A stretch of DNA of 64,000 bases, taken from Alphaproteobacteria bacterium. Its GTDB lineage: Bacteria > Pseudomonadota > Alphaproteobacteria > Micropepsales > Micropepsaceae. Shown one piece after another: positions 2,638 to 22,258 of the stretch (positions within the stretch are counted from its first letter, which is position 1; each line of letters opens with the position of its first letter). Below the pieces are notes generated by a model, which had not been told where the DNA came from, did not search any database, and worked only from the letters and a program-made list of their open reading frames with translations. Position numbers and translations under genes: made by a program. The stretch lies in assembly GCA_025350465.1 (NCBI GenBank), contig JANXXU010000048.1, positions 62,001 to 126,000 of the forward strand, read 5' to 3'.

Positions 2638-4030
2638 CTCGCTTGCTTTTCGCCTCTTGGCGATCGCCGCAATTTGGAGCGTATTGGGCTTGGCGGGCGG
2701 CGGCGCGGCGCTGTCGTCGCTATTCACGCGCTCGGCGGAGGGCAATTTCGACACGCGGCTGAACGCCGATTTGGACAGCGTCATTGCGGCCGCCGATCGT
2801 GACGCCGAGGGCAAGCTCAACGTTGCGCAATCGTTCGTCGATCCGCGTTTCGCCAACGCGTTCTCCGGTTGGTATTGGCAGGTTTCGTCGCTCGACGCGC
2901 CGCCTAAGCCCGAGGGCGCAGAGACGTTCCTGCGCTCGACGTCTCTCTGGGACCAATCGTTGCATCTGGGGCCGCCAACCGCGCTTGGCGTTTCGCGAAA
3001 GGGTTACACCCTCGGCCCGCGAAAGAGACGCCTGCGCTATATCGAGAATGTCGTCAGCATTCCCGACGAGGCCGAGCACCAGGCGGTGCGGCCGGCCGCC
3101 GACCACCGCTATCGCTTCATCGTGGCGGGCGATGTCTCCGACGTCGAGGCGGAGATTTCGACGTTCAACATCACGCTCTGGTGGGCGACGATTATCTTGG
3201 GCGTCGGGTTGTTGAGCGCAATGTTCGTTCAGGTGCGGCTGGGCTTGGCGCCGCTCGCTCGGGTCAGCCGCGCGCTCGCCGCGATCCGCGAGGGCAGGGC
3301 GGATCATCTCGAAGGCGATTTTCCGGCCGAGATCAAACCGCTGGCGGACGAACTCAACGCTCTTGTCGCACACAACGCTCAGGTCGTCACACGTGCGCGC
3401 ACGCATGTCGGGAATCTAGCGCACTTCTTGAAGACGCCGCTTTCGGTTCTCGCCAACGAAGCGCAGGGTTCGCAAGGGCCGCTGGCCGAAGCGGTTAGCC
3501 GTCAGGTCTCGGTTATGCGTCGCCAGGTCGACCACTATCTGGCGCGCGCACGCACGGTCGGGTCGGTCGCAGTGATCGGCGCGCGCACGGAAGTGGCGCC
3601 CGTCGTCTCCGATTTGACGCGCGCTCTCAGCAAACTTTACGCGCCACGCGGGGTGACGGTCGATCGTCAGTGCCCGGACGGCTTGAGCTTTCGCGGCGAC
3701 CGCGCCGATCTAGAGGAGATGATCGGCAATCTCCTCGACAACGCGTGCAAATGGGCAATGGAACAGGTTGAGATCGTCGTTGCGCCATCGGGCGCAGGCC
3801 GACTGAAGATAACCGTGACAGATGACGGTTCGGGTTTGAACGACGATCAAATGTCGCGCGTACTCCAGCGCGGCGAGCGGCTCGACCAATCGAAGTCGGG
3901 TTCCGGCTTGGGCATTTCGATTGTGAAAGAAATTGCGGCTCTCTACGGCGGCGCACTGACATTGGGACGATCGTCGTCAGGCGGATTGGCCGCCGAGCTG
4001 GTATTGCCCGCAGCCGACACCAAAGTATGA
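2624..4030 (+). CDS. Membrane sensor histidine kinase (PhoQ/QseC-like)
   Basis: A 468-residue kinase with membrane segments at about 9-30 and 184-204 enclosing a periplasmic sensor of about 150 residues, then a HAMP linker (205-258). The phospho-acceptor is H267 in LAHFLKTPLSVL, the HFLKTPL form seen in PhoQ-like kinases instead of the usual HELRTPL. The ATPase domain shows the N box (NLLDNACKWA), G1 (DDGSGL) and G2 (GSGLGISIV). The ATG at 2624 is chosen because it begins right before the first membrane helix; an in-frame start at 2594 would add ten polar residues. It forms an operon with the response regulator. The periplasmic ligand is unknown. Confidence 0.92.
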   Translation: MARTNSLAFRLLAIAAIWSVLGLAGGGAALSSLFTRSAEGNFDTRLNADLDSVIAAADRDAEGKLNVAQSFVDPRFANAFSGWYWQVSSLDAPPKPEGAETFLRSTSLWDQSLHLGPPTALGVSRKGYTLGPRKRRLRYIENVVSIPDEAEHQAVRPAADHRYRFIVAGDVSDVEAEISTFNITLWWATIILGVGLLSAMFVQVRLGLAPLARVSRALAAIREGRADHLEGDFPAEIKPLADELNALVAHNAQVVTRARTHVGNLAHFLKTPLSVLANEAQGSQGPLAEAVSRQVSVMRRQVDHYLARARTVGSVAVIGARTEVAPVVSDLTRALSKLYAPRGVTVDRQCPDGLSFRGDRADLEEMIGNLLDNACKWAMEQVEIVVAPSGAGRLKITVTDDGSGLNDDQMSRVLQRGERLDQSKSGSGLGISIVKEIAALYGGALTLGRSSSGGLAAELVLPAADTKV

Positions 4031-4034
4031 GGCG

Positions 4035-4361
4035 CTACACGTCTTCGCGCTCTTTGCTCTTCTTCTTTTTCTTCTTGGCCTTTTTCTCAGGTTTGTCGGC
4101 ATCCTTGGCTGACTCGCGCTCGTCGTCGCGGTCCTTCTTGTCTTTTTTGTTGTCCTTGTCCGGCCCGTGATAGTCGCCGATGCCGCTTAGGATGGCGAAG
4201 CAAGCCAAGCGCACGGTGCGGGGAATTTTGACCGGATCGCCGTCCCGTTCGCCCTTCTCGTAGTACTGCACGACGCGGCGCTTGAGACCGAGAGCGTCCG
4301 CCGCCTCTTTCTGTGACAGCTCGAGGCCTTTACGCCATCGCCTGAAGTCGTGGCCTTTCAT
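4035..4361 (-). CDS. XRE-family helix-turn-helix protein with lysine-rich tail
   Basis: A 108-residue protein. Residues 1-50 are an XRE/Cro-type HTH: FRRWRKGLELSQKEAADALGLKRRVVQYYEKGER. Residues 65-108 are an extremely charged tail dominated by Lys, Asp and Glu, with no fold signature. The ATG at 4361 is chosen over the upstream start at 4541 because GGAGAAG lies at a good distance and the upstream extension is Arg-rich and unlike a fold. The stop is four bases from the histidine kinase stop on the other strand. It is divergent from a small ORF at 4723, with a striking inverted repeat between them that is a candidate operator. Confidence 0.75.
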   Translation of the reverse strand: MKGHDFRRWRKGLELSQKEAADALGLKRRVVQYYEKGERDGDPVKIPRTVRLACFAILSGIGDYHGPDKDNKKDKKDRDDERESAKDADKPEKKAKKKKKKSKEREDV

Positions 4362-4588
4362 GGCGCGCTTCTCCGAAATGCTTGATTTGTCTGAGTTTCC
4401 GTATGCGGACAGTAGCATGCGGCGCCCTAAATGTTCCATCGCCTTCACAACGCCGGCAACGCGCATTTGGCTTCGCGCGAACCGTCGTCGATGCGACCGC
4501 CTGAGCGAACGACGTCGGCGCGAGAGATTGCGAAATGTCACACTGAATCGTGAAAACAGCAGGAGTCAGCCAGCTTTTCGGAAAAGAA

Positions 4589-4663
4589 GCGCACGCCGTG
4601 CGTTCACATACTTGTCATATTGCGCACAATGTGCATATTAGGAATCAGACGCACGGCGTGCGC
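4589..4663. promoter_or_regulatory. Candidate operator: 15-bp perfect inverted repeat, 45-bp spacer
   Basis: GCGCACGCCGTGCGT at 4589-4603 is the exact reverse complement of ACGCACGGCGTGCGC at 4649-4663. Each arm is itself nearly palindromic around GCACG/CGTGC, so each could bind a dimer. The AT-richer 45-bp spacer contains another small dyad (GCAC-AAT-GTGC, 4624-4634). The structure sits between the divergent XRE gene (4361) and the small ORF at 4723. Binding by the XRE protein is an inference. Confidence 0.55.
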
Positions 4664-4722
4664 GCTCGCTCGGGCCACGTTCCCGTCAGGCTTAAGAAAG
4701 CCTTAAGTAGTGAATGAGGAGA

Positions 4723-4893
4723 ATGCCGGTGAGCCAGTTAGCTGCCCCGACCTATTCCATCCCGCGGCCCAATTTCATGTATCGCGTGACGTTCGGCGGT
4801 GTTGTCCGCATAACGACGGACCCCATTGAGGTCGCACGCATTCGCCGAGCCTATCCGAACGCTCAGGTCGAGATCATGCCGTATCGGGGCTAA
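4723..4893 (+). CDS. Small hypothetical protein (56 aa)
   Basis: An ORF below the usual length cut-off. ATG at 4723 (alternative GTG at 4729) follows GAGGAG, and the frame runs to TAA at 4891-4893. The product has no membrane segment. Its C-terminal 35 residues (YRVTFGGVVRITTDPIEVARIRR and onward) read as a small compact alpha/beta sequence with balanced composition, unlike a random shadow ORF. The position, divergent from an XRE regulator behind an inverted-repeat operator candidate, supports a real regulated gene. I do not recognise a family. A short AGGCTT/AAGCCT hairpin at about 4689-4704 lies just upstream. Confidence 0.5.
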   Translation: MPVSQLAAPTYSIPRPNFMYRVTFGGVVRITTDPIEVARIRRAYPNAQVEIMPYRG

Positions 4894-5036
4894 ACCGAGA
4901 TCACGACTGTGACGGCCGTCATGCTCAACCATGGGCCGGTTGCGGTAGGTCTCTGAGCACCTTAGATTCCGGATTGCTGGCGGGGATTCGGCGTGAACGG
5001 CCGGGTCCCCGTTTTGGTCCAAAGAGGGAGGGTCCC

Positions 5037-5753
5037 ATGCGGCTCAGCGCGGCGGTTTCGCTTCTTGCCTTTCTGCTCCCGGCAACGATCACGGTGGCGT
5101 CGGTCGCCTTTGCCGAAAACGTCGGCGAGGCGACCCGTATCCAGACGTTCGCCTATCAAACGCCACCGCAGTCGAACCGGACGCCCATCTACCGGCTCGA
5201 TCCGGTCGTGCGAAATGCAACCCTGCAAACAGTGCCGAACGGCTCGCTTGAAGTCACCTTCACGGACGGCAGCAGACTGACGCTCGGCTCGGGTTCGACG
5301 ATTGTCGTGGACAACTACGTCTACGCTCCCGGCGGTGCAGGCGCGCAGACATTGAAAATGACGCGCGGCGTCTTCAGGTTCGTCTCCGGCACGATCCCGA
5401 AGGATCAGGTTCAGCTGCAGACGCCGATGGTGACGATCGGCATTCGCGGCACGATCGTGAAAACGCAGATCGGCAAGACCGACAACTCGGAGATCATCTT
5501 CTTCGAGCACGGCCAAGGCACGGTCAAATCCAATACGACCGGCGAAACCGTCAACATGGGCGAGGGCGATATGCTCGACGTGGATGGCAACGGACATTTC
5601 GACAAGCCCGTTCACAAGCCTTGGCTTGCCGGGGATGATGCCGTCGACAACGGCATGGGCCCGTTCAACCATCATGACAGCGGCCCGGACGCGGGCAGTA
5701 CCGGCGGTGATGGCGCGGGGGCGGCAGGCGGCGCCGGCGGCCGGGGCAATTGA
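5037..5753 (+). CDS. Secreted FecR-domain protein with Gly-rich tail
   Basis: A 238-residue exported protein: signal peptide (1-26, ending VAFA), then a FecR-type beta domain (about 60-180) with the characteristic FTDGSRLTLGSGSTIVVDNYVY, TRGVFRFVSG and TPMVTIGIRGT segments. The tail (200-238) is Gly/Asp/Ala-rich and probably disordered. The ATG at 5037 is chosen because it begins the signal peptide and has GAGGGAGGG upstream. No sigma factor or TonB receptor is adjacent, so this is not a classical FecR regulator; free-standing FecR-domain proteins are usually periplasmic or surface proteins of unknown job. It ends at a strong terminator. Confidence 0.8.
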   Translation: MRLSAAVSLLAFLLPATITVASVAFAENVGEATRIQTFAYQTPPQSNRTPIYRLDPVVRNATLQTVPNGSLEVTFTDGSRLTLGSGSTIVVDNYVYAPGGAGAQTLKMTRGVFRFVSGTIPKDQVQLQTPMVTIGIRGTIVKTQIGKTDNSEIIFFEHGQGTVKSNTTGETVNMGEGDMLDVDGNGHFDKPVHKPWLAGDDAVDNGMGPFNHHDSGPDAGSTGGDGAGAAGGAGGRGN

Positions 5754-5775
5754 AGTCGAATCCGGTCGATCGTAG

Positions 5776-5801
5776 GGGCGGCATCGTTGCCGCCCTTTTT
5801 T
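5776..5801 (+). terminator. Rho-independent terminator after the FecR-domain gene
   Basis: GGGCGGC (5776-5782), loop ATCGTT, GCCGCCC (5789-5795) and six T residues (5796-5801). It lies 23 bases after the stop of the FecR-domain gene, a classic intrinsic terminator. Confidence 0.9.
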
Positions 5802-5867
5802 GTTTCGAGGGCTGAATGTTAACGAGAACTTGCTAAACTCGGCTGTTCTCAAGATCGCCATCGACGC

Positions 5868-7277: not shown

Positions 7278-8473
7278 ACCGCGCCGGCCTCGCGCAGGGC
7301 GGCGATCTCGCCCGCCGGTAGGCCAAGTTCGAGCAAGATCTCATCAGTGTGCTCACCGAGCTTCGGCGGCGAGCGGCGGATCGTGCCGGGCGTTTCGGAG
7401 AGGGCAACCGGCGTCGTGAAGATGCGCGCGGGCTTTCCCAAGCCATCGAATTTAACGTCGGTGAAAAATCCGGCCGCCTTCACGTGCGGATCATCGATCA
7501 GCTGCTGCGGCGAATAGACAGGACCGGCCGGGACCTTCGCGCGCTCAAGCTCGGCCAAGGCCTGCACCACCGTCCGTTCGGCGCACCAGCGTGCCGTCCG
7601 CTCGCTCAGCAGTTCGCCGTTGTCGCCGCGCGCCTCGTCCGAAGCGAAGCGCGGATCGGCGAGCCAATGCTCTTCGCCCATCAGCTTCGCCCAGCGCCGG
7701 AACAGCGGATCGCCGTTGCACAGCACTGTGACCCACCCGTCGGTGCACTTGAAGATGTCGGCAGGGCCCGATGTCTGTCCGCGGTTGACCGTCGCCACGC
7801 GGTCGGGCGCAATCATCGCCTGCTCGATCAGCGCCTGTGCGGCGAAGGTCGTCGCGGTACGTAGGAGCGCGCCTTCGACCAGCTGCCCGCGCCCCGTCTT
7901 CATCCGTGCGAAAAGAGCGGCCATGGTGCCGAAAGCGGCGAGCGAGGCCGTACCGAAATCAACCCACGAGGCGGCTGAGCGCACGGGCTGCTCCCGTGTG
8001 CCGGCCAGGTAGACCGCACCGCACATCGCTTGCGCCACGCCGTCGAAGCCCAGACGCTCTGCATAAGGACCGCCGCTGCCAAAGGCCGACACCGTCGTCA
8101 GCACCGTGCGCGGATTGAGCGCGCTCACGCTCGGCCAATCGAGCGCCAGCGATTTCAGCGTCTGCGGCGGCAGGTTCACGACCACGACGTCCGCCGTCTT
8201 GATGAGCTTTTGTACGATCTCGCGCCCCTTTGGGTGCGCCGGGTCGAGCGTCAGCCCCTTCTTGTTTCGGTTCATCTGCAAGAACACGGCGCCTTCACCG
8301 GGCGAGCCGTCGGCATGATGCATGACGGGGACGAGCGTGCGGTCCTCCGACCCGTCGCGCTTTTCGATGCGGATCACCTCCGCGCCCATGTCGCCCAAAA
8401 GGGCCGCGCAATACGGCCCGGCGATATAGCGGCCAAAATCCAAGACCCGGATGCCGTCGAGAACCGTTGTCAT
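7274..8473 (-). CDS. CaiB/BaiF-family (class III) CoA-transferase
   Basis: A 399-residue protein opening with the family hallmark GIRVLDFGRYIAGPYCAALLGDMGAEVIRIEK, followed by NRNKKGLTLD and DVVVVNLPP. Class III transferases move CoA between carboxylic acids through an active-site Asp in the large domain; the G-x-G/ASWVDFGTA-like segment near residue 180 fits that region. The start at 8473 (MTTVLDGIRVLDF) is chosen because the 26 residues added by the ATG at 8551 are not family-like. Substrate is unknown. With the acyl-CoA dehydrogenase and FadJ-type enzyme nearby, it probably belongs to organic acid catabolism. Confidence 0.88.
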   Translation of the reverse strand: MTTVLDGIRVLDFGRYIAGPYCAALLGDMGAEVIRIEKRDGSEDRTLVPVMHHADGSPGEGAVFLQMNRNKKGLTLDPAHPKGREIVQKLIKTADVVVVNLPPQTLKSLALDWPSVSALNPRTVLTTVSAFGSGGPYAERLGFDGVAQAMCGAVYLAGTREQPVRSAASWVDFGTASLAAFGTMAALFARMKTGRGQLVEGALLRTATTFAAQALIEQAMIAPDRVATVNRGQTSGPADIFKCTDGWVTVLCNGDPLFRRWAKLMGEEHWLADPRFASDEARGDNGELLSERTARWCAERTVVQALAELERAKVPAGPVYSPQQLIDDPHVKAAGFFTDVKFDGLGKPARIFTTPVALSETPGTIRRSPPKLGEHTDEILLELGLPAGEIAALREAGAV

Positions 8474-8547
8474 GCTCGTCTCTTCCCCGTCGCTCGCGTA
8501 ACACACTATCGTGGGGGCTCTGGAAGGGAAGGGGCGCCACAATCGTC

Positions 8548-11864: not shown

Positions 11865-13946
11865 ATGACCGCCATCAACGACGTTGCCGACCTTACGATC
11901 GACGCCGACATCGCCGTGCTCACGCTCAATTCGCCGCCCGTGAACGCGCTCTCGGCGCCCGTGCGCGACGGCTTGGCCTTCGGCGTCAAGCAGGCGATGG
12001 GCAACCCTGCGGTTAAGGCTGTCGTGCTGATCTGCGAGGGCAAGACGTTCATCGCGGGCGCAGATATCTCCGAGTTCGGCAAGCCGCCGAAAGGCACGAG
12101 CCTGTTCGATGCGCTGAACACGATCGAAGGCGCGTCCGTGCCCGTCGTCGCTGCGATTCATGGTACGGCGCTGGGCGGCGGGCTCGAGGTGGCGCTGACG
12201 TGCCACTACCGCGTTGCCGTGCCATCGGCGAAATGCGGATTGCCGGAGGTGAAGCTGGGCCTCTTGCCGGGCGCGGGCGGGACGCAGCGTTTGCCGCGCA
12301 TCGTCGGCGTCGAGAAGGCGCTCGAGATGGTGACGTCGGGCGAGCATGTGGCCGCCAAGCAGTGCGCGGAGATGGGGCTCATCGATGCGCTGGTCGATGA
12401 GGGAAAATTGCGCGACGGTGCAATCGCGTTCGCCAGGCGCATCGTCGCCGAGAAGCGGCCCTTGAAGAAAGTGCGCGATCTCAACGACAAGGTCGAGGCA
12501 GCGCGCGGGCATCCGGAAATCTTCGCCGCGTTCCGCAAGGCCAATGCGAAGAAGTTTCGCGGCTTCCAAGCGCCGGAGTCGAACATCCGCTGCATCGAAG
12601 CGGCGGTGAACCAGCCGTTCGACGAAGGTATCAAGACCGAACGCAAGCTGTTCATGGAGCTTGTCACCGGCACGCAATCGGCGGCGCAGCGCTATGTGTT
12701 CTTCGCCGAGCGCGCGGTGTGGAAGGTGCCGGACGTGCCTGAGGATACGCAGACGATTCCCGTCGCCAAGGTCGGCGTGATCGGCGCGGGCACGATGGGC
12801 GGCGGCATCGCGATGAACTTCCTCAACGTCGGCATCCCTGTGACGATCGTGGAGACCAAGCAAGACGCGCTCGATCGTGGGCTCGCCACGATCCGGCGCA
12901 ACTACGAGAACACGGCCAAGCGCGGGCGCCTGACGATGGCCGACGTCGAGAAGCGCATGGGGATGCTGAAGGGTTCGCTCGCCCTCGACGATCTCGCCGA
13001 CCGCGACCTGGTTGTCGAAGCCGTGTTCGAGAACATGGACATCAAGAAGGAAGTCTTCGGCAAGCTTGACAGAATTGTGAAGCAGGGCGCGATTCTGGCG
13101 ACCAACACGTCGTACCTCAACGTCGATGAAATCGCCTCGGCGACGAAGCGGCCGGAAGCGGTGATCGGCTGGCACTTCTTCTCGCCGGCGAACGTGATGC
13201 GCCTGCTCGAACTCGTGCGCGGCGACAAGACGTCGAAGCCGGTCATCGCGACCTCGATGCAGATGGCGCGCAAGATCGGGAAGATCGCTGCACTCGTCGG
13301 CGTCTGTCCGGGCTTCGTCGGCAACCGTATGCTGGCACAGCGCCAGCGCGAAGCGCAGAAGCTGATCCTGGAAGGCGCGATGCCGTGGGACGTCGATCGC
13401 GTGCTCTACGATTTCGGCTTTCCGATGGGGCCGTTCGCGATGTCGGATTTGGCCGGCCTCGACATCGGTTGGTCGAAAGAAACGTCGAAGAGTTCGACCA
13501 TGCGCGAGATCCTGTGCGAGATCGACCGGCGTGGGCAGAAGAACGGCGCAGGGTTCTACGACTACGACGCGGAGCGCAACGCGAAACCGTCGCCTTTGGT
13601 CGAAAAGCTGATCCTGGAATTCGCGGCGAAGAAGGGCGTCAACCGGCGCACGATCTTGGACGACGAGATTCTGGAGCGCTGCATCTATCCGATGATCAAC
13701 GAGGGCGCGAAGATTCTCGATGAAGGCAAGGCCATCCGCGCCTCCGACATCGATATCGTCTGGATCAACGGTTACGGCTGGCCGGTTTATCGCGGCGGGC
13801 CGATGTTCTACGGCGACACGATCGGGCTCGACAAAGTGTTGGCCAAGATGCGCCAGTTCGAAGGGCAGATGGGTCCGGAGTTCGCGCCGTCGAAGCTGCT
13901 TGAGAAGTTGGCCGGCGAAGGAAAACGGTTTCAGGATCTAAAGTAA
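11865..13946 (+). CDS. fadJ: Bifunctional enoyl-CoA hydratase / 3-hydroxyacyl-CoA dehydrogenase
   Basis: A 693-residue fused beta-oxidation enzyme. Residues 1-190 are a crotonase domain with the oxyanion-hole segments (FIAGADISEFG, HGTALGGGLEVALTCHYRVA). Residues about 300-480 are the NAD-binding 3-hydroxyacyl-CoA dehydrogenase domain with VIGAGTMGGGIA and the WHFFSPANVMRLLEL segment around the catalytic His. The last 200 residues form two C-terminal dehydrogenase repeats. It hydrates enoyl-CoA and oxidises the product to 3-ketoacyl-CoA. No thiolase is adjacent. The symbol denotes the FadJ/FadB-like architecture; orthology to the E. coli gene is not claimed. Confidence 0.9.
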   Translation: MTAINDVADLTIDADIAVLTLNSPPVNALSAPVRDGLAFGVKQAMGNPAVKAVVLICEGKTFIAGADISEFGKPPKGTSLFDALNTIEGASVPVVAAIHGTALGGGLEVALTCHYRVAVPSAKCGLPEVKLGLLPGAGGTQRLPRIVGVEKALEMVTSGEHVAAKQCAEMGLIDALVDEGKLRDGAIAFARRIVAEKRPLKKVRDLNDKVEAARGHPEIFAAFRKANAKKFRGFQAPESNIRCIEAAVNQPFDEGIKTERKLFMELVTGTQSAAQRYVFFAERAVWKVPDVPEDTQTIPVAKVGVIGAGTMGGGIAMNFLNVGIPVTIVETKQDALDRGLATIRRNYENTAKRGRLTMADVEKRMGMLKGSLALDDLADRDLVVEAVFENMDIKKEVFGKLDRIVKQGAILATNTSYLNVDEIASATKRPEAVIGWHFFSPANVMRLLELVRGDKTSKPVIATSMQMARKIGKIAALVGVCPGFVGNRMLAQRQREAQKLILEGAMPWDVDRVLYDFGFPMGPFAMSDLAGLDIGWSKETSKSSTMREILCEIDRRGQKNGAGFYDYDAERNAKPSPLVEKLILEFAAKKGVNRRTILDDEILERCIYPMINEGAKILDEGKAIRASDIDIVWINGYGWPVYRGGPMFYGDTIGLDKVLAKMRQFEGQMGPEFAPSKLLEKLAGEGKRFQDLK

Positions 13947-13970: not shown

Positions 13971-16508
13971 CTAATTCGCCTTCGGTGCTGAAGGCGGCGC
14001 GTCGCTCGCGGCTGAGTCTTTCAGCATCGATTGTGTGACCCAGCCTTGCTTGGATTCGGTCTTGCCGTCCTTACCTTCGACGCGAACAAGCGTCCACTTG
14101 CCGCGTTGTTCAAGCACACTGACGCTCGCGCCACGCGGCACCGTCGCGACCGCTTTTGCGGACGACGATGGATCGGCGCGCAGCTTTGCGTCACGAACAA
14201 GCGTGGCGAGGCGTTGTTCGGGGACCGGCGCCAAACGGGCGACGACTTTAGGTTCTGCCGCAGTTTTGGCCGGCGGCGCAGGCGCATCGAAAACAAGCGC
14301 TTCGATGCTGGGATAGAACACGATCGCTGTCGCGAACATGCACGCCGCCGCGATGACGCTGCCGATGAACGCCGGTGAATATGGGGCTGGCGATTGCTCC
14401 GCCTGCGGTGCGGTCGGGTCCATCGCGGCGCCTCCCTCAGCGTCGGTTTCGGTCTCCGAAGTGCTTTCGCCCGACAGCCCGAGCTTCAAGCGCATGTCCG
14501 TCAATTCTGCTTCGCGCACGGCGAGAGCGGCGCGTGTGGCGTCGAGCTCTTGGTGGACGCGACCGTCGTCTTTGGTCCTGATGCGGATCTGCGCAAGCGC
14601 CCCTTCCGCGGCTTCATAGCGCGCCGTTGCTTCGGCGAGAGGCCCGGCGTGCTTCTTGCGCCACGCCGCCTCGGCGGCGGCAAGCCACGCGGCGTCGTCG
14701 GCCTTTTCGCCGCGTTCGGCCTTCACAAGGGCGTCCTGCGCGCCTTGTTCCAAGCGTTCGCGCGCGTCCGTGATTTCCTCCTGCGCCTCGGCCAGCTCGG
14801 CATCGCGGGCGGCGATCGTTGCCTCCAGCGTCGACAGCCTCTCACGTAAGCTCTGTGCCTCGGCGTCGCCGCCTTTGGTGATCAGGCCACTTGCAGTCGT
14901 TGAGGCCTTTGCCGACTTCGCTTGCCATTGCGCTTGCGCAATAGTCAGGCGCGCGGCCTCATCGGTCTTCCAAGTTTGCTCGGCCTTTGCGATCGCGTCT
15001 TGTGCCTCGCGCTGCGCGCGCTGGCGTGCCTGCTCGCTGTCCTTCCCTGCAAGAGCGAAAGCCGCGTCGCGTTCCGCAAGCGTTGCCTGCAGCGCTGTCA
15101 GTTGTCCGCGCAAATGGTGCAGGTCGCTCTCATGTTTGCGATCGTCGTTCGCGCCGGTTTGAGCGCGCGCCTCCGCCAAGGCTGTTGCCGCTTGCGCCTG
15201 CCACTGTGCCTCGGCAACAGCAAATCGCGCCGCCTCATCGGTCAACCACGCTTGCTCTGCTTTCGACAGAGCGTCTTGCAATTCGCGCTGCCAACGCGCC
15301 TGCGCTTGCTCGGAAGCTTCGGTCGCCCGGGCCAAGGCAATTTCGCGCGCAGCGAGCGTCGCCTCGAGCGACGCCAATTTTTCGCGCAATTCGCGCCGCT
15401 CGGTTTCGGCGTGCTGATCGTGTGCGGTACCGGCTGTGGCGCGTGCGTCCGACAACTCTCTTGCGGACGCCTCTCGCCACTGCGCTTGAGCGGCGGCAAG
15501 GCGCGTTGCCTCCGCAGTCTTCCAGATCTGTTCGGCTTTTAAGACAGCCTCCTGCGACGCGCGCCGGAGATCTTCGCGCAGCTGTGCGGCGGCCTCGTTT
15601 GCCCGCGCCAATGCGGCGTCACGCTCGACCAGCGCTTGTTCGAGCGTGGCTAATTTTTCGACCGATTGCGATTGAGCGGCGGCGAGCCGCGCGGCTTCGT
15701 CGGCCTTCCATTCGGCCTCCGCGCTTAGTAGAGCATCTTGGGTTTCGCGTTGCCCACGTTCGCGCATCTCGGCGGTTTGCTGTTGCGCGCGCGCTTCCAA
15801 TTCGGCCGAGCGTGCGTCTTGCTCGGTCCGCCATTCGTCGCGACAGAGCTGAAGATGCGCTTCTGCTTGCGCTGCCAATTCGGTTAGGCACTCCTCCAGC
15901 TCGACCTTCCACAGCGCGCGTGCGGCGATCAGTGCGGTTTCGGGATTTGGTGCTGGGTGCGCGACCGGGCGTTCCCCACTTTGCCGTGCCTCGGCGAGTT
16001 CTGTATCGCGTGCGGCGAGTGCGGCTTTCAGCTTCGCCAATTCGGCGCGCAGGTGCTCCGCCTGCGTATCGGCACGCGCATCGTCGCCGCGTGGAGGTGC
16101 GGCAACTTCGTCAACGCTTGCGGTCGTGTCGGCTGGCGACACGACGAAGTCGAGCACGGCCAGCGTGTTGCCGTGCGCAAGGCTGATGATCCTGATGCCA
16201 AGCGAGTGGTCGGCATCCAGGCCGGGAGGGAGCTGGTAGGTGAGATCTTCAAGCTCGTCGGTCGCGAGCGACCACGAGCCGTCGTTGTTTCTGCTTCCCC
16301 TGGACAAGCGTGACTTCTGTGGAAGGCGCTCGATCCGAAGCGACAGTCGGCCGTGTTTTTTGTGCGGCGCAAGCAGTGGCGCGATGTTGAGCGGAATGCA
16401 GCGCGGTGCGGCCAGCGACCCGGCGCCGTCGCGTTGCGCGTCGTGCGCTCTCGCAATGGTCGAGCTCATGTCGAGGTGAGCTGCACGCGCCATGGCGCAG
16501 GACTCCAT
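13971..16508 (-). CDS. Large coiled-coil protein: N-terminal Ig-like segment, ~90-aa coiled repeats, one membrane helix, C-terminal SH3 domain
   Basis: An 845-residue protein with unusual architecture. Residues about 40-125 resemble the Ig/cadherin-like repeat of large surface proteins (LSRGSRNNDGSWSLATDELE then a PPG turn and a final strand). Residues about 150-660 are Ala/Glu/Arg/Gln-rich coiled coil built from about five imperfect repeats near 90 residues, each opening like LREKLASLEATLAARE and containing QDALSKAEQAWLTDEAARFA-like text. A membrane helix lies at about 725-747. The C-terminal 75 residues are a bacterial SH3 domain (LRADPSSSAKAVATVPRGASV). Lacking a signal peptide, it should have the coiled coil inside and the SH3 domain in the periplasm. 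Alternative starts: 16493 (GGAG nine bases upstream) and 16469. Confidence 0.75.
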   Translation of the reverse strand: MESCAMARAAHLDMSSTIARAHDAQRDGAGSLAAPRCIPLNIAPLLAPHKKHGRLSLRIERLPQKSRLSRGSRNNDGSWSLATDELEDLTYQLPPGLDADHSLGIRIISLAHGNTLAVLDFVVSPADTTASVDEVAAPPRGDDARADTQAEHLRAELAKLKAALAARDTELAEARQSGERPVAHPAPNPETALIAARALWKVELEECLTELAAQAEAHLQLCRDEWRTEQDARSAELEARAQQQTAEMRERGQRETQDALLSAEAEWKADEAARLAAAQSQSVEKLATLEQALVERDAALARANEAAAQLREDLRRASQEAVLKAEQIWKTAEATRLAAAQAQWREASARELSDARATAGTAHDQHAETERRELREKLASLEATLAAREIALARATEASEQAQARWQRELQDALSKAEQAWLTDEAARFAVAEAQWQAQAATALAEARAQTGANDDRKHESDLHHLRGQLTALQATLAERDAAFALAGKDSEQARQRAQREAQDAIAKAEQTWKTDEAARLTIAQAQWQAKSAKASTTASGLITKGGDAEAQSLRERLSTLEATIAARDAELAEAQEEITDARERLEQGAQDALVKAERGEKADDAAWLAAAEAAWRKKHAGPLAEATARYEAAEGALAQIRIRTKDDGRVHQELDATRAALAVREAELTDMRLKLGLSGESTSETETDAEGGAAMDPTAPQAEQSPAPYSPAFIGSVIAAACMFATAIVFYPSIEALVFDAPAPPAKTAAEPKVVARLAPVPEQRLATLVRDAKLRADPSSSAKAVATVPRGASVSVLEQRGKWTLVRVEGKDGKTESKQGWVTQSMLKDSAASDAPPSAPKAN

Positions 16509-16696
16509 CGGCGACGCTTAAGAACGGCGCCTGAAGGTGAAACCAAACAAGGCATTTTGCGCCGGCCTCGGTTAAACAATCCTCCCTTTTGAAACGGTCG
16601 TCTGCGCCCGCGGGCGCGGCGAGCTTGGATGGGTAACGATTGATTAAATTTGTATGCTCGGTGTCGTTGTTGCCGTTGCCTTTGGCGAGACCGCAA

Positions 16697-17695
16697 TCAG
16701 CGCATTCGAAACTCAAACCGGCCGTCCTCACCGAGGTCGCGCGCAAACGCGCCGCCGGTGAGATAGATTTTCGCCTCGGGCTTGCCCACCAAATACGTGT
16801 CCCAGAATGCGAGCGACGCACGTTGCACGATCTCGTGCCAGCGATCGTCTTTCGGGTTCGCCGGCCCGCGAAATCTGTGTCCGCTGAACACCATATGGTC
16901 GCCGCCTGTGAGGACGAGCAGGAATTTGTCGGCGCCGTGGATCTCATGATAGGGCACGAGGCGGTCTTCAGGCTTCATGTCCGGCGTCGCGATCGGACTC
17001 CTGTCCTCGGTGCCGGTCATGTGAAAAGTGGGAATTCGCACGTCCGCGAATGCTGCTGTCGCGTCGCCGGTCCGGGGCTTGGACGGCGAATAGGCGATCG
17101 CGGCCTTGATGCGCGGATCGGCGAAACTCGTGCCCAAAGGAAAGCGCTGGCCGGCGAGCGCTTGCGTCGTCACCGCGCCATAGGAATGTCCCGACATCCC
17201 GACGTGCTCCATGTCGAGCCGGCCGCGCAGCGTTGCGTCGTGCGCGTCCATATCGGCGAGCATCGAGATCGCGAATGGTATGTCGCGAAAGCGATCGACG
17301 GCGACGCTCGGGCTCATCGCCTGCGTCATGTCGGTTTTGATCTTGCCGCGGTCGATTGAGCCGGGGGCAGTGGCCGCGCTGAGGTCTCCAAATACGGCCG
17401 GCGTGTCGCTGCCCGGGTGCTGGACCGCCACCGCGACATAACCGTTGGCGGCCAGATAGCTCAGCAGGAATTCCGACCCCTCGCGGTTTCCGCCAAGCCC
17501 GTGCGAGAAGATCACCACTGGCCGCGCCCCCGCCGTTTGCGACGCATAGTAGATCTTGTACGGGACGGTGCGATTGTTGCGCGCCGCGTCCTGCCACTCG
17601 CCGAGAATCGTCTGTACCGGGGCGAGATCCGCTGCCCAAGCGCCCGACGCACCAAGAATCAGCGCGAACGCCAAAAATATGCTGCTGAACCGCAT
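16697..17695 (-). CDS. Secreted alpha/beta hydrolase (dienelactone hydrolase / PAF-acetylhydrolase-like)
   Basis: The product is 332 residues with a signal peptide (1-21, GAWA-A). The fold signatures are VVIFSHGLGGNREGSEFL (oxyanion region), the nucleophile elbow GMSGHSYGAVTT, a candidate acid in TGTEDRSP and the catalytic His in GGDHMVFSG. It probably hydrolyses an ester or lactone in the periplasm; substrate is unknown. The ATG at 17695 is preceded by GGAG at nine bases; the ATG at 17704 has the same GGAG too close. It is divergent from the amidase gene, sharing a 92-base promoter region, and the two may be co-regulated. Confidence 0.82.
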   Translation of the reverse strand: MRFSSIFLAFALILGASGAWAADLAPVQTILGEWQDAARNNRTVPYKIYYASQTAGARPVVIFSHGLGGNREGSEFLLSYLAANGYVAVAVQHPGSDTPAVFGDLSAATAPGSIDRGKIKTDMTQAMSPSVAVDRFRDIPFAISMLADMDAHDATLRGRLDMEHVGMSGHSYGAVTTQALAGQRFPLGTSFADPRIKAAIAYSPSKPRTGDATAAFADVRIPTFHMTGTEDRSPIATPDMKPEDRLVPYHEIHGADKFLLVLTGGDHMVFSGHRFRGPANPKDDRWHEIVQRASLAFWDTYLVGKPEAKIYLTGGAFARDLGEDGRFEFRMR

Positions 17696-17787
17696 TGCCG
17701 TCATCTCCGAGATTGATCTGCTATCGTGCTCGAACGTATTGGTTGGCCGAACCCGTCGCAAAATGCCTGAACGCAGAAGGCACAGGA

Positions 17788-19338
17788 ATGTCGTCAATTC
17801 TAGACTTAACCGCGCGGCAAACCGCGCAAGCGATTGCCAAGGGCGACGTCGCGGCAGCCGATGCAGTCGAGGCTCGCATCGCTCGCATCGAGGCGATCAA
17901 TCCCAAGCTCAACGCGGTCATCTGGAAACGGTTCGACGAGGCGCGCGCCGAAGCCAAAGCGGTGGACACGAAACGCAAGTCGGGCGAGCCACTGGGGCCG
18001 CTCGCCGGTGTGCCTGTGACACTGAAGGATTCGATCGATCTGAAGGGCGCGCCCTCGACCTTCGGCTTGCCGTCGCGCGCGCAGATACTTGCGACCGCCG
18101 ATGAGGTACACGCGGATCGCTTGCGCCGCGCCGGCGCAATCGTGCTCGGCAAGACCAACATCGCGCAGATGTTGCTGTTTCTGGAAACGGACAATCCACT
18201 CTATGGCCGCACCAATAATCCGTGGGATTTGGCGCGCAGCCCCGGCGGCTCGAGCGGCGGCGAGGCGGCGACGATCGCGGCCCGCATGAGCCCGCTCGGC
18301 ATCGGCACAGACGTCGGCGGCAGTGTGCGCAATCCGGCCGCCGTCTGCGGCATCGCCAGCATCAAGCCGACCGCCGGGCGTTGTCCGGACACCGGCGCCT
18401 TCTCTTATCCGCTGGGCCAGAACGTGGTCGAAAGCCAAGTCGGCGTCCTCGCGCGCACGACGGACGATGTTGCGCTGGGCCTTGAGATCATCAACGGCGG
18501 GGCGAACCCGGCAAGCGAGCCGCCACGACCGCTTGGCGATTACGCGAAGGTCGATGTCTCGAAACTAAGGGTCGGCTACACCGAGACGGACAGTACGTTT
18601 GCCGCGTGTCCGGCTTCGCGGCGCGCCGTCCGCGAAGCGGCTGCTGCCTTGAGTGCGGCGGGTGCGACTGTCTTCGCCTGGGCACCGCCACGAGTCGACG
18701 AAGCGGTGGCGCTCTTCTACGGCATCATGACCGCGGGCGGGCGAGGTTACGCGAGGATTCTGGGGCCGAACAAAGCTGATCCGCGCGTCGCCGGGCTCAT
18801 TCGCTTCGGCGGCATGTCGCATGCCTCGTGCAAGCGCCTTGCGCTGTTGCTCGGTGCTCTTGGGCAAAAGAATCTCGCCGCCGCCGTCGCAACGTTCGGT
18901 CGTCGCTCGACAGAAGAGTACTGGGATTTGATCGAACAGCTGACCGCCTATCGTGCCTCGTTCACCGCGGCTATGAAGAGCGCGGGCGACATGGATTTGA
19001 TCCTATGGCCTGCGAGCGCGTTGCCGGCCCTGACGCACGGCGCGAGCAATGACCTCGGCACGATGGGCGGCTACACAAACCTCTACAACGCGCTCGGTCT
19101 GCCGGCGGGCGTCGCGCCTGTGACGCGCGTGCAGGCGAACGAGGAAAGCGACCGCCCGCGCTCGCGCGACCGCCTCGACGCCGCCGCGCGCAAGGTCGAG
19201 CAAGGAAGCGCCGGCTGTCCGATCGGCGTGCAAATCGCCGGCCGCCCGTGGCGCGAGCACCAAGTGCTCGCCGCCATGGCCGTGGTCGAGGCATCAGCGC
19301 GCAAGTCGCCGAGCTTTCCGCTGGCGCCGGAAATTTGA
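17788..19338 (+). CDS. Amidase signature family hydrolase
   Basis: A 516-residue amidase. The Ser-cisSer-Lys triad is visible: Lys in VPVTLKDSIDLKG, the cis-Ser in SPGGSSGGEAA, and the nucleophilic Ser in GIGTDVGGSVRNPAAVCG. Family members hydrolyse diverse amides; the absence of gatB/gatC and the insertion pattern argue against GatA. No signal peptide is seen, so it should be cytoplasmic. The ATG at 17788 follows ACAGGA and begins with the expected LTARQTAQAIAKGD helix. A GNAT acetyltransferase gene follows four bases after the stop and is probably co-transcribed. Confidence 0.9.
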   Translation: MSSILDLTARQTAQAIAKGDVAAADAVEARIARIEAINPKLNAVIWKRFDEARAEAKAVDTKRKSGEPLGPLAGVPVTLKDSIDLKGAPSTFGLPSRAQILATADEVHADRLRRAGAIVLGKTNIAQMLLFLETDNPLYGRTNNPWDLARSPGGSSGGEAATIAARMSPLGIGTDVGGSVRNPAAVCGIASIKPTAGRCPDTGAFSYPLGQNVVESQVGVLARTTDDVALGLEIINGGANPASEPPRPLGDYAKVDVSKLRVGYTETDSTFAACPASRRAVREAAAALSAAGATVFAWAPPRVDEAVALFYGIMTAGGRGYARILGPNKADPRVAGLIRFGGMSHASCKRLALLLGALGQKNLAAAVATFGRRSTEEYWDLIEQLTAYRASFTAAMKSAGDMDLILWPASALPALTHGASNDLGTMGGYTNLYNALGLPAGVAPVTRVQANEESDRPRSRDRLDAAARKVEQGSAGCPIGVQIAGRPWREHQVLAAMAVVEASARKSPSFPLAPEI

Positions 19339-20629: not shown

Positions 20630-20818
20630 GGCGGGGGCCTGCTGCCGTTTTGCGCATGTTGCACTTGTGCGCGCTGCTGTTCCAGGCGCCATCCGAAGAT
20701 TGCGGAAAAGCTTGTGAATTTGAAACGAGCAAGCAGGCGGGCGCATGGCCGAACGGTTAGACTTGCATCAAATCACGCCCGCGCCGGGACCAGGGCACGC
20801 CATCCAAGGAAAACACCC

Positions 20819-22093
20819 ATGAAGACCACCCGCTATCACAAGCGCACCATTGCCGGTCGCCCGCTCCATCCCGAAACGCAGATGTTGAGCTATGGCTATG
20901 ATCCCATGCTGTCGGAGGGCGCCATCAAGCCGCCGATCTTTCTGACCTCGACATTCGTCTTTCGGAACGCTGAGGAAGGCAAGATCCTCTTCGACGTCAT
21001 CGGCAACCGGCGGGCGGCGCCCGAAGGGCAGAGCGGCGGCCTCGTCTATTCGCGCTACAACAATCCGAATTTGGAGATGCTCGAGGATCGATTGGCGTTG
21101 ATTGACGACGCCGACGAGTCTCTTGCGTTTTCTTCCGGTATGGCCGCGATCACGACGACTTTGCTGGCCCATTTGCGCCCCGGCGATTGCGTGGCCTTTA
21201 CGAAGCCGCTCTATGGCGCAACAGCCTCCCTGATCGAACGCTTCCTGTCGGAGTTCAACGTCACTTCTGTGGCAATCGAAGACGCAACCACGATCGGCAA
21301 GATTCGCTCGGCGATCGAAAAGGTCGATCCCGCGCGCATCAAAGTGATCCTCGCCGAAACGCCGGCGAACCCGTCGAACATCCTCTGCGACGTTCAGGCG
21401 TTGGCCCAAGTGGCTAAGGAGATCGGCGCGAAGAGCGGCAAGCGCCCGATCCTTGCGGTCGACAACACGCTGCTCGGCCCGATCTTTCAAAATCCCCTGA
21501 AGCACGGCGCCGACATCAACATCTATTCGCTGACGAAATATGTCGCCGGCCACAGCGATCTGGTCGCCGGCGCGGTGACGGGCAGTGCGGCGGCGCTCGC
21601 GCCGATGCGTACGCTGCGCGGCTGGTCCGGCTGCCAGCTCGATCCGAATTCCTGCTGGATGGTGGTTCGCTCGCTCGAAACCGTGGCGTTGCGCATGAAC
21701 AAATCGGCCGAGAACGCGCGCATCGTCGCCGAATTTCTGAGGGCGCATCCGAAGGTGGAGCAAGTGAACTATCCGGGCTTCTTGCCGAGCGGCGAGCCGC
21801 AGCGCGCGATCTTCGAGCGCCAATGCACGGGCGCCGGCTCGACCTTCTCCTTCGTCGTCAAGGGCGGTAAGGACGGCGCCTTCCACGTCCTCGACAATCT
21901 CCAAATTGTGAAATTGGCGGTCAGCCTTGGCGGCACAGAGAGCCTCGCCTGCCATCCCGCGACGACGATGCACTCGAGCTTTAGCGTCGACGAGCGCAAG
22001 CGCCTCGGCATCCCCGACGGCTTGATCCGCATCTCCATCGGCGTCGAACATCCCGACGACCTCGTCGCCGACCTGCAGCAAGCGCTGGCCTAG
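20819..22093 (+). CDS. Cys/Met metabolism PLP-dependent enzyme (cystathionine gamma-synthase / methionine gamma-lyase type)
   Basis: A 424-residue fold-type I PLP enzyme. The Schiff-base Lys lies in NIYSLTKYVAGHSDLVAG; YSRYNNPN and SSGMAAITTTLLAHLRPGD are the cofactor-phosphate and substrate regions; TPANPSN is family-typical; SLGGTESLACHPATTMHS closes the active site. Such enzymes make or cleave cystathionine, methionine or O-acylhomoserine derivatives; the exact reaction cannot be read from the sequence. The ATG at 20819 follows AAGGAAAA. The insertion DVIGNRRAAPEGQSGG before YSRY is longer than in the classic MetB. An inactivated alpha/beta hydrolase follows directly. Confidence 0.87.
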   Translation: MKTTRYHKRTIAGRPLHPETQMLSYGYDPMLSEGAIKPPIFLTSTFVFRNAEEGKILFDVIGNRRAAPEGQSGGLVYSRYNNPNLEMLEDRLALIDDADESLAFSSGMAAITTTLLAHLRPGDCVAFTKPLYGATASLIERFLSEFNVTSVAIEDATTIGKIRSAIEKVDPARIKVILAETPANPSNILCDVQALAQVAKEIGAKSGKRPILAVDNTLLGPIFQNPLKHGADINIYSLTKYVAGHSDLVAGAVTGSAAALAPMRTLRGWSGCQLDPNSCWMVVRSLETVALRMNKSAENARIVAEFLRAHPKVEQVNYPGFLPSGEPQRAIFERQCTGAGSTFSFVVKGGKDGAFHVLDNLQIVKLAVSLGGTESLACHPATTMHSSFSVDERKRLGIPDGLIRISIGVEHPDDLVADLQQALA

Positions 22094-22094
22094 C

Positions 22095-22258
22095 ATGATC
22101 GAGTCCGGGCGTTGGATCGCGCGCGGCGAGGTGGAGTTGCGCGTTCGCCGGATCGGTCAAGCCGGAGTGCGCGACGTGGTGATGCTGCCGTCGCTGGGGC
22201 GCGGCAGCCACAGCCGGAGCAGATCGCGCGTGCTGTTGTCGATGCCCTGCAAGGATAG
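22095..22258 (+). pseudogene. Remnant of an alpha/beta hydrolase (internal deletion)
   Basis: Starting two bases after the PLP enzyme stop, one frame encodes an N-terminal hydrolase-like segment (GRWIARGEVELRVRRIG, then VVMLPSLGRG, the oxyanion-region form of many alpha/beta hydrolases). At about 22204 the similarity jumps to another frame encoding QPEQIARAVVDALQG and a stop at 22256-22258, which looks like the normal C-terminal end of such hydrolases. The roughly 200 residues between, including the nucleophile elbow, are missing. I read this as a deletion scar of a gene once co-transcribed with the PLP enzyme. Confidence 0.5.

Follow-up and report, generated by a model that had tools for sequence, protein, structure and literature searches.

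A candidate wall-anchored scaffold family of Alphaproteobacteria with an Ig-like head, a hendecad-type rod, one membrane helix, and an SH3 domain

In the available text of the reports that describe them, PodJ, HubP, and Csd5 share a plan in which a periplasmic wall-binding domain is joined through one membrane helix to a cytoplasmic recruiting part (PMC8980812, PMC8789113, PMC9507126). PodJ, a polar scaffold of Caulobacter, has long coiled coils and a disordered region in the cytoplasm, a single membrane helix, and a wall-binding periplasmic part with TPR and peptidoglycan-binding domains (PMC8980812). HubP of Vibrio combines a periplasmic wall-binding LysM domain, a coiled coil, and one membrane helix with a large cytosolic repeat region made of acidic repeats and TPR (PMC8789113). 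Csd5 of Helicobacter pylori is a membrane protein whose C-terminal periplasmic SH3 domain binds peptidoglycan and whose cytoplasmic part binds a bactofilin (PMC9507126). FilP and Scy form long alanine-rich hendecad rods and have a DivIVA-type N-terminus, with no membrane helix or SH3 domain named in the available text (PMC9858780).

We analyzed a 64,000-nucleotide stretch of DNA, hereafter the window, which encodes a protein that begins with an Ig-like head and continues with approximately 530 helical residues, followed by one membrane helix and a C-terminal SH3_3 domain. The author of an earlier note on this DNA knew of no described system with this exact layout. That no described system has a layout of this kind is not supported, since PodJ, HubP, and Csd5 likewise join a cytoplasmic part through a single membrane helix to a wall-binding domain in the periplasm. 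The general plan is therefore known, and what appears to be new is the combination of an Ig-like head, a hendecad rod, and an SH3 domain, for which we found no description in the literature searched, most of it outside subscription journals.

Like PodJ, the family is predicted to have a cytoplasmic coiled-coil part and one membrane helix leading to the periplasm; it differs in carrying an SH3 domain and an Ig-like head, and Pfam scans of its tail match SH3 models only, with no TPR/Sel1 or peptidoglycan-binding domain. Like Csd5, it is predicted to be a membrane protein whose SH3 domain, at the C-terminus, lies in the periplasm, whereas the family's long rod and Ig-like head are features that the available text on Csd5 does not describe (PMC9507126). 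In place of the LysM domain of HubP/FimV, of which there is no trace among the Pfam matches of 14 members, the family has an SH3 domain, and in place of the acidic repeats and TPR it has the rod and the head. Its rod, with an alanine content of 26%, resembles those of FilP and Scy, but no DivIVA model appears among the Pfam matches of the 14 members at E up to 1.

Table 1. Features of the family gene and its product (window coordinates).
Feature	Position	Strand	Remarks
Family gene, preferred-start ORF	13971..16493	-	840 residues + stop
GGAG, probable ribosome-binding site	16503..16506	-	9 nt upstream of ATG 16493
Ig-like head	16137..16397	-	residues ~33-119; profile match (contig 78137-78397), fold prediction, alignment
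Alanine-rich helical rod	14481..16079	-	residues ~139-671, period ~3.68
Three clear 92-residue units	14850..15677	-	residues 273-548; diverged units either side, ~257 and ~595
Membrane helix	14292..14375	-	residues ~707-734, hydrophobic core 708-726
SH3_3 domain (PF08239)	14022..14189	-	residues 769-824; 37.8 bits vs curated cut-off 27

The reading frame called in the earlier note (13971-16508, minus strand) is open across its full extent in the window. The gene is real, and only its start had to be moved, to a likely ATG at residue 6 of the reported frame, behind a GGAG. A GGAG lies at about the equivalent position in 10 of 16 homologues whose starts were picked by alignment. Downstream, a convergent gene encodes an enoyl-CoA hydratase/3-hydroxyacyl-CoA dehydrogenase (11865-13946), and an alpha/beta hydrolase gene (16697-17797) lies on the same strand about 200 bases upstream. 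A scan of 16400-16800 revealed no promoter-like site upstream of the gene and two terminator-like sites, compared with 0.8 expected. Elsewhere in the window, an open reading frame of 442 aa (20768-22096, minus strand) gives no Pfam match at E up to 0.1.

A first single-protein scan of genome contigs gave 19 stretches, of which none was a relative; a whole-protein search matched 20 of 61 genomes, the window's own counted. We read 33 homologous frames that carry the head, 31 from the window's order and two from elsewhere. An SH3 tail is present in 30 of these, and the other three (L025, L026, and L035) run into contig ends, which bears out the order of parts proposed earlier. One frame, L054, is the same as L052 in length and scores. 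Of 96 genomes in the window's order, 37 match the head profile, with strong scores in 36 and a weak one, 6.6e-4, in G020; among high-quality genomes of the order the count is 25 of 60, G020 included. A profile of the membrane helix and SH3 domain together matches strongly (E up to 2e-14) in 33 of the 78 genomes of the order that are at least 85% complete, and its next matches, at 1e-10 and weaker, are short SH3 frames. The head is also matched in 31 of these 33 strong-tail genomes, indicating that head and tail go together. One of the other two, G006, holds a fragment at a contig start. The single exception is G011, whose protein (L034 on contig C17, 904 aa) has the rod, membrane helix, and SH3 domain and shows no trace of a head even when filters are removed; thus, the head is not always needed. 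Given that fewer than half of the genomes in the window's order carry the family, we regard it as accessory, and so patchy a spread argues against a core function.

Across the class, at least 43 of 387 genomes match the head profile, the window's order counted. Among the matches listed, only G275 (2.8e-27) and G153 (1.1e-19) lie outside the window's order with E below 1e-15, and each shows the complete layout. In the order to which G275 belongs, four of 24 genomes match at 1e-15: G275 itself; G491, with the full layout; G483, in which the contig ends immediately after the membrane helix; and G489. The last contributes a 264-residue frame (L162 on contig C25) with the head and a short helical stretch, without a membrane helix or SH3 domain, which from its sequence is a truncated or short form. 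Across the phylum, nine of 398 genomes match at 1e-15, the window's counted. Frames were read for G509, where the matches form a tandem array within a frame of 4350 residues, and for L163, L164, and L165, which start at contig ends and contain heads with neither an SH3 domain nor a hydrophobic stretch above threshold; four more matching genomes were counted by profile match alone.

Since a single helix connects the wall-binding domain with a cytoplasmic recruiting part in PodJ, HubP, and Csd5, we take a wall-anchored scaffold to be the most likely role of the family, and we hold with middling confidence that the protein is an accessory, single-pass scaffold of the inner membrane. For this scaffold we infer wall binding, self-association, docking, a place, and a cargo, as follows. 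The periplasmic SH3 domain would hold peptidoglycan, and the membrane helix would connect this domain with a long hendecad-type rod in the cytoplasm that probably self-associates. Carried by the rod, the Ig-like head would offer a docking surface, having been derived from an adhesin-type repeat and reshaped for this use. The scaffold would keep its cargo where the wall dictates, be it the pole, the septum, or a curved side, and would have an accessory part alongside the PodJ-like protein that this genome also encodes. What we can read from sequence comprises the parts, their order and conservation, the kinship of the head, the period of the rod, and the likely topology. The scaffold is suggested by the layout kept in 30 of 33 frames, a charge-based topology common to 26 of 30 proteins, a head that is the best conserved part and has invariant R and E residues, an alanine-rich rod with a period of 3.66-3.75, and the co-occurrence of head and tail. 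Counted against it are the absence of a conserved neighbour at 35 loci, the patchy spread (37 of 96 genomes), the headless protein of G011, a poor full-length structure model (pLDDT 69.8, pTM 0.24), a membrane helix in the window protein that no K or R flanks, and five of 33 rods that peak below 3.6.

There are two main rivals to the scaffold. The first is an envelope sensor, in which the SH3 domain would read the condition of the wall, the rod would relay this to the head, and the head would bind or free a signalling partner. A sensor would have the same topology and the same conserved head, and it would accord with a membrane region conserved enough to be found with the SH3 domain as a single profile. 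However, the Pfam matches of 14 members include no signalling domain, and no conserved partner gene came to light when we compared neighbours at 35 loci (frames of at least 90 aa, picked mechanically, longest first). These loci have no conserved neighbourhood, and the most widespread neighbour cluster is found in four of them. In addition, the rod varies in length and is interrupted at joints predicted to be flexible, which would make it a poor relay. We therefore consider a sensor rather unlikely.

The hydrophobic pattern of the rod in the window protein peaks at a period of 3.68 residues, with hardly any signal at 3.50. Averaged over 33 rods, with the window's counted and L026 excluded, the spectrum has maxima at 3.66 and 3.75, whereas shuffled sequences give flat spectra; the five that peak below 3.6 are L028, L029, L036, L116, and L117. 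Periods of 11/3 and 15/4 correspond to hendecads and pentadecads, which form little supercoil or a right-handed one, and alanine is favoured in hendecad cores, according to the available text of a report on such rods (PMC9858780). The coiled coil claimed earlier thus stands as a long helical rod, and its type in most members is hendecad or pentadecad rather than heptad (3.5).

The rod of the window protein also repeats with a period of 92 residues (z = 9.6 compared with 100 shuffles), with further offsets at 184, 180, and 88. The earlier note had counted five repeats. Three of them, centred at residues 319, 411, and 503, are clear and have 36-45 of 92 residues in common, whereas the two centred at 257 and 595 have diverged and share merely 14-28 of 92 residues with the other units. 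At the DNA level there are five 44-nt copies, four of which are 61-77% identical to the reference copy, at spacings of 264, 276, 276, and 186. That 92 equals 25 x 3.68 is no independent evidence, because the Fourier peak of a tandem array is bound to lie at a fraction of its repeat length. The strongest offsets vary among relatives (for example 92, 79, 99, 106, 34, and 30, with multiples of 15 residues in L112), suggesting that the duplications arose separately. The proposal that the rod grew by internal duplication is supported by the 92-residue period in the window and by the other repeat lengths in relatives. The poor full-length model breaks the helix at 349-361, 446-457, and 534-546, or about every 90 residues.

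A rod that is alanine-rich, of low complexity, and variable in length, in a family with one headless homologue, could also belong to a passive spacer or elastic tether. In this second main rival, the rod and its ends would do no more than hold wall, membrane, and cytoplasm (or nucleoid) apart, without a specific cargo. Such a role does not sit well with the conservation of the head, which is the best conserved part (mean column identity of 55% over 33 heads, compared with 35% over 14 full-length proteins) and has invariant charged residues, and we judge it improbable. A lone charged helix serving as a spacer is not favoured, because the rod has a hydrophobic stripe.

The hydrophobic core at 708-726 is the sole membrane helix of the window protein and precedes an SH3_3 domain that scores above its curated cut-off, confirming the single membrane crossing proposed earlier. 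SH3 models match all 14 aligned family members (Pfam scan, E up to 1), and no Pfam model other than SH3 was found in the tails of the window protein and the 14 members. A sequence profile search of the PDB likewise gave four matches to the tail, all of them bacterial SH3 chains of solved structure (best E 2.4e-5). Membership in TIGR04211 (SH3_and_anchor) was rejected: its cut-off is 65 bits, and the window protein scores 19.7, with a maximum of 29.8 among five proteins scanned.

SH3_3 domains are commonly found outside the cytoplasm. To orient the protein, we counted K and R in the 18 residues that flank the membrane core on each side, in the window protein and 29 homologues. The N-terminal side has the excess in 26 of the 30 proteins, the two sides are equal in two, and the N-terminal side has fewer in two (totals 123 and 29). 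These counts suggest that the head and rod are likely cytoplasmic and the SH3 domain periplasmic. The topology claimed earlier is in this way supported by the family, while the window protein's own flanks, which have no K or R, are uninformative. The earlier note had also named a signal peptide at the true start as a finding that would overturn this topology. No hydrophobic stretch lies close to the assigned start of the window protein; marginal hydrophobic stretches occur at the head edge of L026, L116, and L117. An inverted topology, with head and rod outside the inner membrane and the SH3 domain inside, would suit a head that is kin to repeats of extracellular type, yet it runs against both the charge counts and the start of the window protein, and we hold it to be highly improbable. 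Many homologues have an R-D pair immediately before the membrane helix, which is absent from the window protein and L021.

The Ig-like character claimed for the N-terminal segment was upheld by a predicted fold that is mainly beta (pLDDT 91.7) and by profile matches to tandem repeats of very long reading frames. A Foldseek search of the PDB returned no solved structure at E up to 0.001 (best 0.027), and VIA-align gave a best Z of 6.3, in the range of a common arrangement. Matches of the heads to three fused RecA chains in a PDB profile search (E 3.6e-6 to 9e-4 over 27 residues) were judged to be chance, with no stretch passing alone.

The kinship between the head and a domain of giant proteins, also claimed earlier, holds. 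The head profile matches tandem repeats with E down to 2.4e-18 in the 4350-residue frame of G509, adhesin-type repeats match it at E 2.7e-13 and less, and a joint alignment of 33 heads (the window's and 32 others) with 83 repeats confirms a shared domain core. Elsewhere, the weaker matches come mostly from tandem repeats, in frames as long as several thousand residues, with the motif ED...DxDGSE...GVPxGAxLSAGTDNGDGTWTLxxxQLxGLxITPP. The nearest Pfam model for two repeats scanned is PF17892 (Cadherin_5), below its cut-off. These cadherin-like repeats share a domain core and motif with the head; they are tandem, acidic, and set in very long frames, whereas the head is a single copy, is less acidic, and has lost the acidic motifs, and the family proteins lack the tandem array and the length of an exported adhesin. 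At five columns where 82, 80, 92, 87, and 93% of repeats have D or E, only 12, 3, 0, 3, and 6% of heads do. The heads have instead gained columns that are 94, 97, 100, and 100% K or R and an invariant E, the invariant R and E columns being absent from the repeats. Net charge ranges from -5 to +3 in heads and from -28 to -3 in repeats, which are somewhat longer segments, except for one repeat at +3 (L113). The acidic motifs of these repeats probably bind calcium.

L113 (G153, contig C105, minus strand, 922 aa) is a second G153 protein with one adhesin-type Ig domain, at 711-813. By eye, this domain sits between a membrane helix and a Sel1-like stretch that comes after it, whereas Pfam gives no match; it is possibly a separate reuse of the domain in an envelope protein. 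Because it too has lost the acidic motifs, their loss alone is no proof of a cytoplasmic place. In another genome (L038, G037, contig C2), an adhesin-type frame of at least 6213 aa has four head-profile matches.

A helper of giant adhesins, whose head would pair with like repeats in the same cell before or during export, is the least probable reading and largely refuted despite this clear kinship, since extra head-profile matches occur, among 96 genomes, only in G027 (two, weak) and as the lone weak match of G020, so that most carriers seem to have no such adhesin. For the scaffold, the kinship allows a more specific version, which we put forward tentatively as possible: an undescribed family of uncultured Alphaproteobacteria in which an extracellular-adhesin domain was moved to the cytoplasm and stripped of its acidic, calcium-type motifs, and in which a new conserved charged surface became the cargo dock of a self-assembling, wall-pinned hendecad rod beside PodJ. 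If so, a surface-adhesin module has been reused inside the cell, and a wall-anchored scaffold has been built on a nearly straight or right-handed coil. The relatives, whose rods changed in length by duplication, would be a natural series of rods of different length. The layout appears to resemble those of proteins that organize cell poles and cell shape, and if the protein marks a place in the cell, it would offer a handle on cell organization in Alphaproteobacteria known mostly from metagenomes.

The window's genome also encodes a separate PodJ-like protein of 1029 residues (L147:1557-4643, contig C5), so named from its layout: Sel1 repeats by Pfam, and a coiled-coil look and membrane helix by eye. 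No peptidoglycan-binding Pfam match was found in it, and it has no sequence kinship with the family protein (best E 0.31), a comparison made with this genome's own protein rather than with PodJ of Caulobacter. In the window's order, 77 of 78 genomes match the PodJ-like protein, many through the Sel1 part alone, whether or not they carry the family, so that a role for the family as a PodJ replacement is not supported. A motility link was likewise rejected: flagellin exceeds its cut-off in 24 of 32 family genomes and in 34 of 46 without the family, among which G011 was counted (Fisher p = 1). The window's genome has two bactofilins, and a bactofilin is present in 76 of 78 genomes of the order; being nearly universal, its presence says nothing about a pairing with the family. 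In one genome (G091, contig C333, L130), two bactofilin matches (7714-7998 and 8223-8507) follow the family gene (3272-5866) downstream on the same strand, at a distance of about 1.8-2.6 kb, a proximity that may be chance.
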